Positions 3,687 to 47,756 of a stretch of 60,880 nt of DNA are shown piece by piece (position 1 is the stretch's first letter; each line of letters begins with the position of its first letter). The stretch comes from Bacillus sp. ISL-37. GTDB taxonomy: Bacteria > Bacillota > Bacilli > Bacillales > Cytobacillaceae. The position numbers and the translations under genes are program-made. A model generated the notes under the pieces. That model was not told where the DNA came from. It saw only the letters and a list, made by a program, of their open reading frames with translations, and searched no databases. Location: contig NZ_JAGGQL010000022.1 of the NCBI RefSeq assembly GCF_018613315.1, forward strand, positions 1 through 60,880. Reading direction: 5' to 3'.

Positions 3687-3882
3687 TCCGAATCGCTTTA
3701 TAGTTCATTTATATGCTTCAGTCCAGGCATTCATGAATGTATTTGACAATATTGTGAAATAACACACAAGGTTATTGTGATAGGGAGCATGGATATGATA
3801 TATTTATGGCGTGAAGTTGATCACAAACAAACATTTACCCCTTTGTTTGACCGTGAAAAATTTCTCCCATCCCCTTTGTTCG

Positions 3883-3931
3883 TATAAAATAGAGAAAAGG
3901 CCTTGCAGTTGGAGAGCTGCAAGGCCTTTTT
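3883..3931. terminator. Strong unassigned hairpin with a -10-like box beside it
   Basis: GGCCTTGCAG and CTGCAAGGCC form a perfect ten-base stem with A runs before and T runs after, so it can terminate in both directions. No gene ends next to it on either strand. On the + strand a TATAAAAT box (3883-3890) lies just before the stem, so a very short terminated transcript is conceivable. The rest of 3687-4231 holds only this hairpin, the 41-bp repeats and the spxH terminator. Confidence 0.5.
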
Positions 3932-32365: not shown

Positions 32366-32438
32366 GATTCCTTAGCTCAGCTGGGAGAGCGCTACCTTGA
32401 CAGGGTAGAGGTCGCTGGTTCGAACCCAGTAGGAATCA
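32366..32438 (+). tRNA. tRNA-Val (anticodon GAC)
   Basis: The acceptor stem GATTCCT / AGGAATC pairs perfectly. The D arm is AGCTCAGCTGGGAGAGC. The anticodon stem CTACC / GGTAG encloses TTGACAG, giving anticodon GAC. The T arm GCTGG / CCAGT encloses TTCGAAC. The 3' CCA is not encoded. It is a single gene with its own promoter and terminator. Confidence 0.95.
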
Positions 32439-34726: not shown

Positions 34727-34816
34727 TGATCAGAGGTATAACAAAAAAATGGTTTATTCTTCTAGACGAATCATCAAACTTCTTATATAGTAGAGATGAC
34801 AATTGGAGAATAGGAA

Positions 34817-34906
34817 ATGTAGGGGAGCCGGTGGTGCCGGCTGAGATAGTATCCATAGATGCTGACCCTTTAACCTGATCTGGTTAGTACCAGCGTAGGG
34901 AACATC
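34817..34906 (+). promoter_or_regulatory. TPP riboswitch (THI element)
   Basis: The conserved blocks are present: AGGGGAGCCGG, GGCTGAGA, GACCCTTTAACCTGATC, TGGTTAGTACCAGCG and TAGGGAAC, closed by ATGT/ACAT. A terminator follows at 34944, so thiamine pyrophosphate should switch the downstream operon off. Confidence 0.96.
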
Positions 34907-34943
34907 TTCTGATAGACGGTTTTCGTTTATTATGGATTTTTTC

Positions 34944-44543: not shown

Positions 44544-44618
44544 AAAAAAACCACCGTAAACCCGAAGCTGATGCTCCAGGTTCTAACGGTGGTTAGTCTT
44601 TAGCAGGGTCGCTGCCAA
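44544..44618 (-). promoter_or_regulatory. Candidate leader RNA A (hairpin plus terminator) before the oxidoreductase
   Basis: Read on the minus strand: a small hairpin TTGGCAG-CGACC-CTGCTAA, then AGACTAACC, then a terminator (AACCACCGT ... ACGGTGGTT followed by seven T). The ACTAACC block overlaps the 5' arm of the terminator. The same AGCGA-CCTGCT-ACTAACC series recurs in leader B at 46627-46777. I do not recognise a known riboswitch family. It lies in the DUF2294-oxidoreductase gap. Confidence 0.6.
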
Positions 44619-44628
44619 GTGCCATACC

Positions 44629-44991
44629 TTATAAGTTATAGAATTTTTCTTGAATGTCCTCATCAAAAACAAAGATGGACATTCCAAAATCCCGATCGAT
44701 ATCTATATCTACAAAAAGTTCTACCAACTTGCAGCCAAGAAACTCTTCCATTTCCACTGGAGGATTCTTTCGGTACATTTCTTTAACCATTTCTGTTCTG
44801 GCCGCCCTAAGTGCCTGTTTTCCTTCATTGGCTGATGCAATGAATTTTTCTACAGGTGAAAGGTTTCCTTCCATTTCGCAGATGGCCCATTTCTTACAAA
44901 AGGTAGTGGTTATTTTGCTTGGCCCTTTGCCCATGTGCTTTTTGCGAAAGGATCGGACCAGATTGCTGAATTCTGCCTCGTATTTATTCAT
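44629..44991 (-). CDS. DUF2294 protein
   Basis: 120-aa soluble protein of the DUF2294 family (FSNLVRSFRKKHMGKGPSKI and ARTEMVKEMYRKN are landmarks). Such genes often neighbour formate dehydrogenase genes in Bacillus. AGGAGGATAAT precedes the ATG. It is the promoter-proximal gene of the operon, with leader A between it and the oxidoreductase. Function unknown. Confidence 0.88.
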   Translation of the reverse strand: MNKYEAEFSNLVRSFRKKHMGKGPSKITTTFCKKWAICEMEGNLSPVEKFIASANEGKQALRAARTEMVKEMYRKNPPVEMEEFLGCKLVELFVDIDIDRDFGMSIFVFDEDIQEKFYNL

Positions 44992-45058
44992 ATTATCCTC
45001 CTGTTATCGATACAGGTTATAAGACGATAGGTATTTTACCATATTGAGAGGCAATTAG

Positions 45059-45174
45059 AAAAGCGCAAGCGCCTTGGTCAGCCCCGACAAGCGCTGGAGG
45101 GCCGACCGGTGAAGTTGTTCTTTGACTTCATTGGGCGGACCGAAGCGTCTCGAGGGGCTAGGCGCTGGAGCTAG
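45059..45174 (-). repeat. Dispersed modular repeat, copy 3 (short form, inverted)
   Basis: On the minus strand it reads CTAGCTCCAGCGCCTAGCCC through TCGGTCCGCC to CGCTTGCGCTTTT, with the same order as copy 2. It lies after the OFA transporter stop and before DUF2294. Confidence 0.9.
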
Positions 45175-45220
45175 ACAATTCTTTAAGTTAAATATAATTC
45201 TTCAGATAATTTTAAAAGCA

Positions 45221-46483
45221 TTAACCAGCTAATCTTTCATTAGCTTCATTTTGTTTTCGAAGCTTATTGATATCACGGCGGATTAAAATGGACACCGCCA
45301 GCGCAACAACGAACAGTCCGCTGAAGAACGTTAAGCTCGTTCCGTAGCTTCCTGTAGTGTCTTTCATCCAGGCTGCGAACATTGGTCCAGCCAATCCTGC
45401 AGCTGCCCATGCAGTCAGGATATAGCCGTGTATCGCACCGAGCTGTTTTGTTCCAAATATGTCACCGATGAATGCTGGGATGGCCGCAAAACCGCCGCCA
45501 TACATTGTGTAAACTACCGCAAGCATTACCTGGAATAGAAATGCTTCCTTTGTATGCGGCAGCATCATGAACAAGACAATCTGTGTTGCAAAGAAAATTG
45601 TGTATGTGTTAGGGCGGCCGATATAGTCAGAAATCGAAGCCCATGCGATTCGTCCAAAGCCGTTGAATAGACCTAAAACTCCAACTAGTGCAGCTGCCTC
45701 TGCTGTCGATAGACCAATACTTTCTTCTGCTAAAGGTTTTGCAGCTGAAAGGATGGCGATTCCGCAAGTAACATTGATGAACAGCATCACCCAAAGATAG
45801 TAAAAACGTGAAGTTTTTATTGCTTCATTTGCTGTCAGCTGAGAAAGGTCTTTCTTGAATTTCACTTTTCCTGATTCAGCTTTTTCCCTAAAGCCTTTTG
45901 GAGCCCAATCAACAGGAGGCCTTTCGAGGTACAGGGATGACAGTGTCATTATAATAAAATAAGCTGCACCTAGAATGTAAAATGTATTGGCAGTACCTAC
46001 AGATTTAATCAGAGAATCCATAATTGGGCTGCTGATCGCTGCCGCAAAACCGAATCCCATGATGGCAAGTCCTGTGGCAAGTCCGCGTCTGTCTGGGAAC
46101 CATTTTACCAAAGTGGAAACTGGGGCTATATAACCGACTCCCAGACCAATTCCGCCTAAAACACCATAAGTAATATACAATAATGGCAATGAACCGAGAT
46201 TGACCGCCAGTCCTGATCCTAAAATACCTGCTCCGAAAAAGGCTGCTGCCAGGAGTCCAGCTTTTCTTGGACCGTGTTTTTCAACAAAATGCCCGAGGAA
46301 CGCTGCTGATAATCCTAAAAATAAAATGGCAAGGCTGAAGGTAAATTGTACTTGCTTGGAAGTCCAACCGAACTCCTCGATTAATGGGTTCGTGAAGTTG
46401 CTCCAGGCATATACAGACCCAATGGAAATGTGGATTCCCACTGCTGAGGCTGCAATAAGCCATCGATTCTTCGTTTTTTTCAT
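45221..46483 (-). CDS. OFA (oxalate/formate antiporter)-family MFS transporter
   Basis: 420-aa MFS protein with 12 spans. The N-terminal HISIGSVYAWSNFTNP is the OFA landmark, followed by FGWTSKQVQFTFSLAI and the GVGYIAPVSTLVKWFPDRRG loop. A second DRRG-like loop is SDYIGRPNT. It likely moves formate or oxalate for the neighbouring oxidoreductase. AAAGGGGAAAAAGC precedes ATG at 46483. Leader RNA B lies 140-300 bases upstream. Confidence 0.92.
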   Translation of the reverse strand: MKKTKNRWLIAASAVGIHISIGSVYAWSNFTNPLIEEFGWTSKQVQFTFSLAILFLGLSAAFLGHFVEKHGPRKAGLLAAAFFGAGILGSGLAVNLGSLPLLYITYGVLGGIGLGVGYIAPVSTLVKWFPDRRGLATGLAIMGFGFAAAISSPIMDSLIKSVGTANTFYILGAAYFIIMTLSSLYLERPPVDWAPKGFREKAESGKVKFKKDLSQLTANEAIKTSRFYYLWVMLFINVTCGIAILSAAKPLAEESIGLSTAEAAALVGVLGLFNGFGRIAWASISDYIGRPNTYTIFFATQIVLFMMLPHTKEAFLFQVMLAVVYTMYGGGFAAIPAFIGDIFGTKQLGAIHGYILTAWAAAGLAGPMFAAWMKDTTGSYGTSLTFFSGLFVVALAVSILIRRDINKLRKQNEANERLAG

Positions 46484-46626
46484 GCTTTTTCCCCTTTACT
46501 TTTTTTGTTTTTCCATATGACCAATGACTGCAACAATGAAGTGGATGGAATCTCTTAAACTACAAAGACCTTGATTCCAAGCTCGATATGTATACTGTTG
46601 TTGTTCCTAGTTCTTTCCCAAGAAAC

Positions 46627-46777
46627 AGAAAACCGTCAATCTTCCCAAGTCCGCGACAAAGAAGCGGACATTGATAGAAAAATTGACGGTTAGTACTAAG
46701 CAGGATTCGCTACTTACGGACCAACAGTTAATCGCTTACATTTCCATGACACCTTAACCGACGACAGGATCGCTATC
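46627..46777 (-). promoter_or_regulatory. Candidate leader RNA B before the OFA transporter
   Basis: Read on the minus strand: hairpin GATAG-CGATC-CTGTC (46763-46777), a region with CGGTTA (46755-46760), hairpin TAAGTAG-CGAATC-CTGCTTA (46697-46716), then TACTAACCG and a terminator (AACCGTCAAT ... ATTGACGGTT then TTTT). CGGTTA could pair with the TAACCG in the terminator 5' arm, giving an antiterminator. The motif is shared with leader A. The rest of 46484-46967 is A/T-rich and without a gene. Confidence 0.6.
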
Positions 46778-46967
46778 TCGAATCAAAATGTGACAGAATA
46801 GTGAACTTCGGGAAAATTTTATCATCTTAGAACTGTAGATGCAATACATTTTAGGTTGCTAAATCAATTTTACACTATGAGTGTGTTGTAAATTTTTCTT
46901 GAGAAAAAGAAAATAGTGTGTTTAGATTTTAAGTATTCTCAAATTCTAAAAAATTCAGGTGACGACT

Positions 46968-47756
46968 ATGTTAGAAAACATGAGTGAAAAATATACCATA
47001 ACAAAATATCAGGATGGACAATTCCTGGATGTAGAGGATGTCATCGTAAATGAATTCCCATTGACCATTTATGTAAATGACATGGAGTTTGCAACAATGG
47101 TTTGCACTCCTACACATTTTGAGGAAATGGTTGTCGGTTTTCTGGCATCCGAAGGGGTTATCCGTTCCTACAATGACATCCATTCACTTAGCATCGATGA
47201 AAGCAGAGGCTATGCTTACGTTATGCTAAAAGTGAGTATGACAACAAACCAGGAGTATTATTCAAAACGATTTATTGGTTCCTGTTGCGGGAAGAGCCGT
47301 CAATTTTATTTTCATAATGATGCCCGGACAGCGAAAACCTCGATGTCCAATACAACCATATCAGCGACTCAGAGCATTGCCCTGATGAAAAAGATGCAAA
47401 ACAGCTCTCAAGTGTTTCTTGAAACTGGAGGAGTACACAATGCAGCTCTTTGTTCCCCTGATGAAATGATTGCGGTTCGCACGGATATTGGAAGACATAA
47501 TGCACTGGATAAGTTATATGGATATAGTATTTTGAATAGGGTGCCTGTAAGAAATAAAATCATTGTATTTAGTGGCAGGATTTCCTCAGAAGTACTATTG
47601 AAAGCTGCGAAGATCGGGGTAGGAATCGTCCTGTCAAAATCAGCGCCGACTGATCTTGCTATCAAACTGGCTAAGGACTTAAATATAACTGCAGTAGGTT
47701 TTATCCGTGGAAAATCTTTTAATGTGTATTCTTGTCCAGAAAGAATTATTGATTAA
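46968..47756 (+). CDS. fdhD: Formate dehydrogenase accessory sulfurtransferase FdhD
   Basis: 262-aa FdhD, which passes sulfur to the molybdopterin cofactor of formate dehydrogenases. Landmarks are NEFPLTIYVND, EMVVGFLASEGVI, the reactive GSCCGKS (Cys pair), TGGVHNAAL and TDIGRHNALDKLYG. ATG at 46968 with CAGGTGA is preferred to GTG at 46959. Its location by the OFA and oxidoreductase genes supports a formate role for the cluster. Confidence 0.95.
   Translation: MLENMSEKYTITKYQDGQFLDVEDVIVNEFPLTIYVNDMEFATMVCTPTHFEEMVVGFLASEGVIRSYNDIHSLSIDESRGYAYVMLKVSMTTNQEYYSKRFIGSCCGKSRQFYFHNDARTAKTSMSNTTISATQSIALMKKMQNSSQVFLETGGVHNAALCSPDEMIAVRTDIGRHNALDKLYGYSILNRVPVRNKIIVFSGRISSEVLLKAAKIGVGIVLSKSAPTDLAIKLAKDLNITAVGFIRGKSFNVYSCPERIID

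Follow-up and report, generated by a model that had tools for sequence, protein, structure and literature searches.

Two related attenuator-type leader RNAs in a formate gene cluster of Bacillus sp. ISL-37 and their link to one clade of MpsC proteins

In the RAT/PRD systems of antitermination (LicT, SacY), the antiterminator hairpin overlaps the first arm of the terminator. In those of the ANTAR proteins (EutV/NasR/AmiR), the gene is on when the protein is bound to two small hairpins with near-invariant heads, the second of which shares a strand with the terminator. Two related leader RNAs of comparable layout are described here in a 60,880-nucleotide (nt) stretch of Bacillus sp. ISL-37 (contig NZ_JAGGQL010000022.1, positions 1 to 60,880; the window). 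On its minus strand, leader B lies 5′ of a gene string that runs OFA transporter, MpsC/DUF2294 protein, leader A, FdhF/YdeP-family oxidoreductase, with fdhD divergent upstream. RAT elements are not known to resemble these leaders in sequence. Tandem hairpins overlapping a terminator, as in ANTAR targets, are present in leader B and in 111 dual-hairpin elements collected from Bacilli, and leader A of the window has one hairpin; as for ANTAR, a protein partner and an on state upon binding are proposed below. ANTAR targets have a six-nt loop whose first nucleotide is A and whose fourth is G (PMC3369931), whereas the loops of the leaders are CGNNC or CGNNNC, A occupies loop position 1 in 0 of 222, and an outer helix, P1, encloses the second hairpin. 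An ANTAR-type factor, named as an example in an earlier reading of this DNA (the original prediction), was rejected on these loops and because the protein (PF03861) is missing from this genome and from 19 of 20 leader-bearing genomes (present in G296).

The molybdenum cofactor (Moco) riboswitch and other Rfam leaders are alike in their position before molybdenum-enzyme genes, but differ in that Rfam 15 gives no match near leaders A and B at gathering score; at E values up to 10, five rows were returned, all far below their gathering scores and none on the leaders. This result agrees with the original prediction, which had placed the leaders in no known family. Leaders A and B form one family of likely attenuators without description in the literature searched, in which, with most subscription journals outside its coverage, no formate riboswitch is described either.

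Layout and covariation of the leaders

Leaders A and B are probably both attenuators of transcription, of the antiterminator/terminator class. Their common design is a hairpin with AG/CU closing pairs and a CGNNC or CGNNNC loop, held inside the outer helix P1 (Table 1). Because the first terminator arm starts within the 3′ strand of P1, the P1 fold and the terminator are mutually exclusive. Leader A reads GGTATGGCAC TTGGCAG CGACC CTGCTAA AGA CTAACC (minus strand, 44628-44591), followed by a terminator with seven T that ends at 44544; the pairing of the terminator arms is retained through compensatory changes. This copy scores 93.0 bits with R2, a covariance model built from leader A with this copy included. 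Hairpin number varies: leader B has two, and leader A has one here and two in Brevibacillus. The original prediction had the letters and coordinates of both leaders right, along with their differing terminator stems, and its hairpin and shared strand stand as described; it overlooked the outer helix GGU-A-UGG/CUAACC of leader A. In leader B, CGGTTA (46760-46755) is complementary to TAACCG (46692-46687), as it had proposed, but hairpin 2 is directly enclosed by the helix GUUGGU/ACUAAC. The stretch CGGTTAA has an alternative partner, TTAACTG, 22 nt further on, and although the long-range CGGUUA/UAACCG pairing is possible, ViennaRNA favours P2 plus P1.

Minimum-energy folds were calculated with ViennaRNA at growing transcript lengths. 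In leader A, P1 and the hairpin are formed at 42, 50 and 74 nt, a different minimum is found at 58 and 66 nt, and from 82 nt on the terminator fold takes over at −37 to −38 kcal/mol. In leader B, P1 and hairpin 2 are formed at 98-146 nt and the terminator from 154 nt on. A default off state, turned on when P1 is held closed, fits both this folding and the conservation of P1.

The recurrence of the leaders exceeds chance, although some of the pattern matches are themselves chance ones. The pattern AGCGAN{1,2}CCTGNN{4,8}CTAACC was found in 45 of 397 genomes of the order, against 17 sites in 15 genomes for the reversed pattern, and two copies were present in nine of ten genomes drawn from the genus itself (none in G005). 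Fifteen of 20 stretches fetched lie in the same gene cluster; the other five (L046, L049, L052, L059, L062; L and G numbers are our handles for loci and genomes) are unrelated sequence, as is a match in L022. No wider regulon emerged in the Bacillus sp. ISL-37 genome, where the pattern occurs in two places and R1, the covariance model built from leader B, matches one, leader B; R2 was not run across that genome.

Alignments of 29 copies of leader A and 21 of leader B each gave a consensus structure; changes on both sides affect 4 of 16 pairs in leader A and 11 of 24 in leader B. The hairpin was examined in 65 diverse copies of both leaders, with 500 shuffles and slid alignments as controls. 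Pairing was kept in 89.9% of cells, compared with 85.2% after shuffling and at most 57.4% after sliding; 31 cells were changed on both sides against a shuffled mean of 10.2; and the covariation score was 0.307 against 0.224. None of the 500 shuffles was as high on any of these three measures, and two further measures were unremarkable (34 and 117 of 500 shuffles as high). The two innermost pairs are uninformative here because they never vary. Nine pair sets were counted for P1, including GUUGG/CUAAC, GUUGA/UUAAC, GUUAA/UUAAC, GUUAG/CUAAC, AUUGG/CUAAU and GUUGU/GCAAC. Five contiguous P1 pairs are present in the best register in 113 of 178 rows, a count made without shuffle control on a set with a few non-leaders, and one that leaves out the bulged leader A forms GGUAUGG/CUAACC and GGUUUGG/CUUAACC. 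At the level of sequence, hairpin and P1 both show compensatory changes across the class Bacilli.

The 111 distinct dual-hairpin elements had been selected to have three or more outer pairs in each stem. All loops of hairpin 1 are CGNNC or CGNNNC, as are 108 of the 111 loops of hairpin 2 (the other three begin with UG), and by deciles the distance from the CCU of hairpin 1 to the AG of hairpin 2 is 47-69 nt. The heads are near-invariant while the stems drift. Two mutually exclusive helices, each with compensatory changes (those of P1 counted without shuffle control), are expected of an attenuator and are present here, and leaders A and B are almost certainly conserved, structured leaders.

Table 1. 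Coordinates of the leader elements and of the genes around them in the window
Feature	Positions	Strand	Details
Leader A antiterminator	44591..44628	-	P1 5′ strand GGUAUGG 44628-44622; P1 3′ strand CUAACC 44596-44591
Leader A hairpin	44600..44618	-	UUGGCAG 44618-44612; loop CGACC 44611-44607; CUGCUAA 44606-44600
Leader A terminator	44544..44594	-	AACCACCGU..ACGGUGGUU + U7; first arm overlaps P1 by AACC
Leader B hairpin 1	46763..46777	-	GAUAG-CGAUC-CUGUC; stem varies with pairing kept; outside P1
Leader B middle helix P2	46725..46760	-	CGGUUAA 46760-46754 with UUAACUG 46731-46725, one G-U; seen in partial-transcript folds
Leader B antiterminator	46689..46725	-	P1 GUUGGU 46725-46720 / ACUAAC 46694-46689 around hairpin 2
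Leader B hairpin 2	46698..46715	-	AAGUAG 46715-46710; loop CGAAUC; CUGCUU 46703-46698
Leader B terminator	46627..46691	-	AACCGUCAAU..AUUGACGGUU + U-rich tail; first arm shares AAC with P1 and AACCG with the alternative TAACCG strand
FdhF/YdeP family molybdopterin oxidoreductase, 786 aa	42152..44512	-	TIGR01701, 815.7 bits (cut-off 582.15); PF00384, PF01568; downstream of leader A
MpsC/DUF2294 protein, 120 aa	44629..44991	-	PF10057, 114.7 bits, above the Pfam cut-off of 23; candidate trans-acting antiterminator
OFA-type MFS transporter, 420 aa	45221..46483	-	PF07690; downstream of leader B
fdhD	46959..47756	+	PF02634, 276.3 bits; divergent from leader B

Gene contexts and the MpsC clades

The set of genes behind the leaders is centred on formate and one-carbon genes. 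A whole-genome search with R1 in 398 genomes of the class Bacilli gave matches in 37 at E values up to 0.01, of which 35 remained after inspection; those in G133, within a coding region, and G703, a plain terminator without the hairpin, were dropped as false. Downstream of the leaders lie OFA and YdeP genes and, in L125, L127-L129 and L133, fdhD, with the series fdhD-moeA-moaA in L127. In L124, a leader precedes a formate dehydrogenase of the Fdh-alpha type whose gene is interrupted, the larger piece scoring 616.5 bits with TIGR01591 (cut-off 666.25). The one outlier is Neobacillus terrae (L216:7908-8047, minus strand), in which a leader with two CGAAC hairpins stands before an operon of EAL, CheW and sCache chemoreceptor genes, 3 kb from a lone MpsC gene; the same control is possibly linked to chemotaxis there. 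Further copies with compensatory changes, standing before functionally coherent genes, are what the original prediction called for; its attenuation layout and single shared control are likewise supported. It had assigned the leaders to two separate operons, but A and B belong to one gene string.

The leaders are tied to one clade of MpsC proteins. Across 84,980 species, each represented by one genome, 213 stretches were found to encode a relative, and the best 80, with names, were kept. Among these 80, some of which belong to the sequences used to build R1 and R2, leader A directly follows MpsC in 73 and an R1 match precedes MpsC in 72; the arrangement with fdhD divergent from OFA-MpsC-YdeP is found in 61. 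The seven loci without leader A come from N. terrae and from six genomes (Cytobacillus oceanisediminis and two Bacillus sp.), and in these six MpsC lies beside fdhD, with the series leader B-OFA-leader A-YdeP on another contig or 0.77 Mb away. The clade (at least 220 bits) was found in 46 of the 398 Bacilli genomes, including 34 of the 35 with a true R1 match; a locus search of the remaining 12 with R1 and R2 also found leaders, which brings the count to 46 of 46. The 35th genome, G525, has a leader of the present type (class I) and an MpsC of another clade. Among 30 Bacillales genomes, 20 of which had been picked for carrying a leader, MpsC is present in 27. The dual-hairpin pattern occurs in 76 of the 398 genomes, against about 30 for the reversed control, and its matches in genomes without the clade appear, on visual inspection of the letters with stems unchecked, to reflect chance or repeats in coding sequence. 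MpsC proteins adjoining leader A are 74-90% identical to that of the window (18 relatives). In L125, L126, L132, L133, L135 and L139, MpsC is 77-85% identical, compared with 54-71% for OFA and 56-62% for FdhD; in L009 and L058, OFA is conserved as much as MpsC or more. In a separate observation, the genome G232 has a second OFA-YdeP locus (L045) that carries leader B without MpsC, and its other locus has MpsC.

Other MpsC clades adjoin leaders of other types. In class II, Staphylococcus-like loci (L276, L311-L317) have a leader of the same logic after MpsC; its hairpin is GUAC-NNN(N)-GUGCUG, and the terminator takes over a strand of that hairpin. Seven of these eight loci have a downstream frame with MKIV(A/V)LFPE (none is listed in L316). 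The frame of L312 is a NAD-dependent formate dehydrogenase (550.3 bits with NF005750, against a cut-off of 329; 6ttb is its best match in the PDB), and the family assignment refers to this frame, the other six being putative. A similar hairpin precedes other genes in L273, L328, L274 and L327, that of L274 being OFA. In class III (L277, L320, L322, L326, L330), the leader has the form GGAUUGG-like, UUAGYA-loop-UGCUAA, AUCCACC-like, matches R2 at E values of 9.8e-7 to 0.017, and precedes a long, putative formate dehydrogenase-like gene divergent from MpsC. Of 299 genomes of the order, five contain this pattern, and the reversed control gave two sites. A bicarbonate type, with a GGGAGAU-stem-AUAAACCG hairpin and a terminator, separates MpsC from the gene that follows it in 11 of the 12 loci of a further clade (L065, L068, L069, L071, L072, L074-L078 and L091, for example L091:1861-1960; the exception is L064). 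By Pfam, this following gene encodes an SbtA-type bicarbonate transporter in L068 and a NuoL/MpsA-like protein in L071; the others look alike by eye. In six of these 12 loci a longer leader with the word TTTAGCA lies 5′ of MpsC; Rfam gave no match for either the bicarbonate-type or the TTTAGCA leader. Neither an SbtA/NuoL-like gene nor a GGGAGAU-type element was found in the MpsC loci L066, L067, L070 and L073.

In an MpsC tree of 46 rows, the class I rows form one clade (support 99/99), as do 11 of the 12 class II rows (100/99) and the six bicarbonate-type rows (100/100). A further clade (100/99) is made up of G525 and ten rows labelled as having no leader, labels that predate the recognition of class III. 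It holds all five class III loci and L324, plus L278, L319, L325 and L329, in which no leader was seen. L327 and G525 are the exceptions to the correspondence between leader type and clade.

A proposed role for MpsC and its rivals

In the genomes checked, MpsC accompanies the RNA even where the two are unlinked, and its clades match the leader types, which makes it the best candidate for the factor that works the leaders. In the proposed mechanism, the RNA completed without the factor would fold into the intrinsic terminator and the downstream gene would be off. A trans-acting factor would recognise the hairpin with the AG-CGNNC-CU head and, once bound, hold P1 closed, keeping the shared strand from the terminator and allowing read-through into the genes for the OFA transporter and FdhF/YdeP enzyme. 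Two like heads in one leader speak for a protein that binds at two sites, as ANTAR proteins do, and since leader B and some forms of leader A have two hairpins the factor is perhaps a dimer. The factor would be the MpsC of the same gene string, sensing formate or a related one-carbon compound. On these sequence comparisons, the chance that MpsC is an RNA-binding antiterminator of the leaders appears evenly balanced; its binding to the RNA, the on state upon binding and the identity of the signal are what we infer. The NAD-dependent class of formate dehydrogenase is molybdenum-free, and one related leader serves such an enzyme, which makes formate a likelier signal than molybdenum cofactor. The cofactor, one of the signals considered in the original prediction, is thereby weakened as a candidate, yet a leader A also stands before fdhD-moeA-moaA in L127.

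A wider proposal, somewhat doubtful and likewise built on sequence, is that MpsC/DUF2294 may be a new family of RNA-binding antiterminators of one-carbon metabolism, in which each clade would read its own hairpin type in response to formate or CO2/bicarbonate. CGNNC heads would then go with OFA, YdeP and FdhD, GUAC-GUGC with the molybdenum-free NAD-dependent formate dehydrogenase and others, UUAGYA-UGCUAA with a putative molybdenum formate dehydrogenase, and GGGAGAU-AUAAACCG with SbtA-type transporters and NuoL/MpsA-like genes. Several observations weigh against a role of MpsC: genes of one pathway co-occur anyway (fdhD, too, is present in 71 of the 80 named loci), MpsC clades also follow host kinship, and G525 keeps a class I leader beside a different MpsC. 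The last of these also speaks for another RNA-binding protein common to these Bacilli, neither MpsC nor ANTAR, as does the dual-hairpin layout, which is that of protein-directed antitermination (compare PMC3369931). Such a protein is improbable given that MpsC tracks the leader even when unlinked, a weak argument in that ANTAR was the sole other candidate screened.

The main rival is a small-molecule riboswitch, in which formate (or bicarbonate/CO2) would bind the P1-hairpin RNA and stabilise the antiterminator, with MpsC a mere pathway neighbour. Conservation of leader A is very strong and extends to the internal loop (YAC/AGA) that separates P1 from the hairpin, and the contexts are mostly formate-linked (OFA, YdeP, FdhD and Fdh-alpha, and NAD-dependent formate dehydrogenase for a related leader). 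However, the near-invariant nucleotides lie in two separate hairpins 47-69 nt apart, with a joining stretch that differs between families, which better suits a protein with two sites; a lone hairpin of 5-7 base pairs with a 5-nt loop would offer little for a pocket; and the leader type shifts with the MpsC clade. A riboswitch is therefore considered unlikely, though less so than another protein. Partial termination between the genes of one string is common, and both terminators fold strongly, as they would if the leaders were plain terminators with a protective hairpin and no regulated switching. That explanation is very improbable: P1 pairing is kept through changes though it disfavours the terminator, and the hairpin heads are almost invariant above drifting stems.

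The fold of MpsC proves nothing on RNA binding, because it has no clear relative in the PDB. An AlphaFold2 model from 39 sequences is alpha/beta with a predicted local distance difference test (pLDDT) value of 93; its comparison with the PDB gave no clear relative and no known RNA-binding family prominent among the rows, and the sequence itself gave weak rows only (E 0.096 and 0.41). The literature searched names DUF2294 only in unrelated work. In Staphylococcus aureus, deletion of mpsC gave no growth phenotype and MpsC was judged to lie outside MpsAB; mpsAB and mpsC are separated by a weak terminator, and mpsA is lower at 5% CO2 (PMC6689103; PMC8552792). Outside staphylococci, mpsC is stated not to adjoin the homologues of mpsAB (PMC6689103; PMC8552792), in contrast to L071, where MpsC precedes a NuoL/MpsA-like gene.

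A leader RNA of yrhE in B. subtilis is alike in its position before a formate dehydrogenase gene, a comparison made by description and not by sequence. We take its YrhF to be an MpsC/DUF2294 protein, B. subtilis having been shown here only to hold a PF10057 protein. In an Hfq pull-down study, a 139-nt RNA between yrhF and yrhE is given as a new small RNA or the yrhE leader (ratio 170), and the same listing has ncr2184/ncr60 at yrzI-yrhG (PMC3574147). If YrhF is MpsC-like, the 139-nt RNA sits where such a leader would lie, a hint from the literature in favour of MpsC.

As far as the literature searched shows, the family of leaders A and B would be the first among regulatory RNAs to be linked to formate metabolism in Bacilli, and it offers a testable role for the uncharacterised MpsC. 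Should each MpsC clade read a different hairpin, a single family would connect formate, CO2/bicarbonate uptake and transcription attenuation.

The transporter and neighbouring features of the window

The substrate of the cluster is less certain than the OFA label implies, because the product of the OFA gene lies above the cut-off of the NCBIfam L-lactate MFS transporter model NF049980 (463.9 bits, cut-off 320) and below that of the oxalate/formate family TIGR00890 (222.2 bits, cut-off 374.85). Directly 5′ of leader B hairpin 1 (46784-46808, minus strand), a stretch AAGTTCAC-N5-TGTNACATTTTG is kept among Bacillaceae and is perhaps a protein-binding site. Near it lies a weak promoter-like TTGCAT-17-TAAAAT (46844-46816), absent from the promoter scan listing. 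Elsewhere in the window, a TPP riboswitch (34811-34918, plus strand) and an RsaE/RoxS small RNA (3811-3929, plus strand) were found at Rfam gathering score, along with a tRNA at 32366-32438. In B. subtilis, YrhF is among the new RoxS targets tabulated in one study, with a ratio of 0.42 (PMC10433868).

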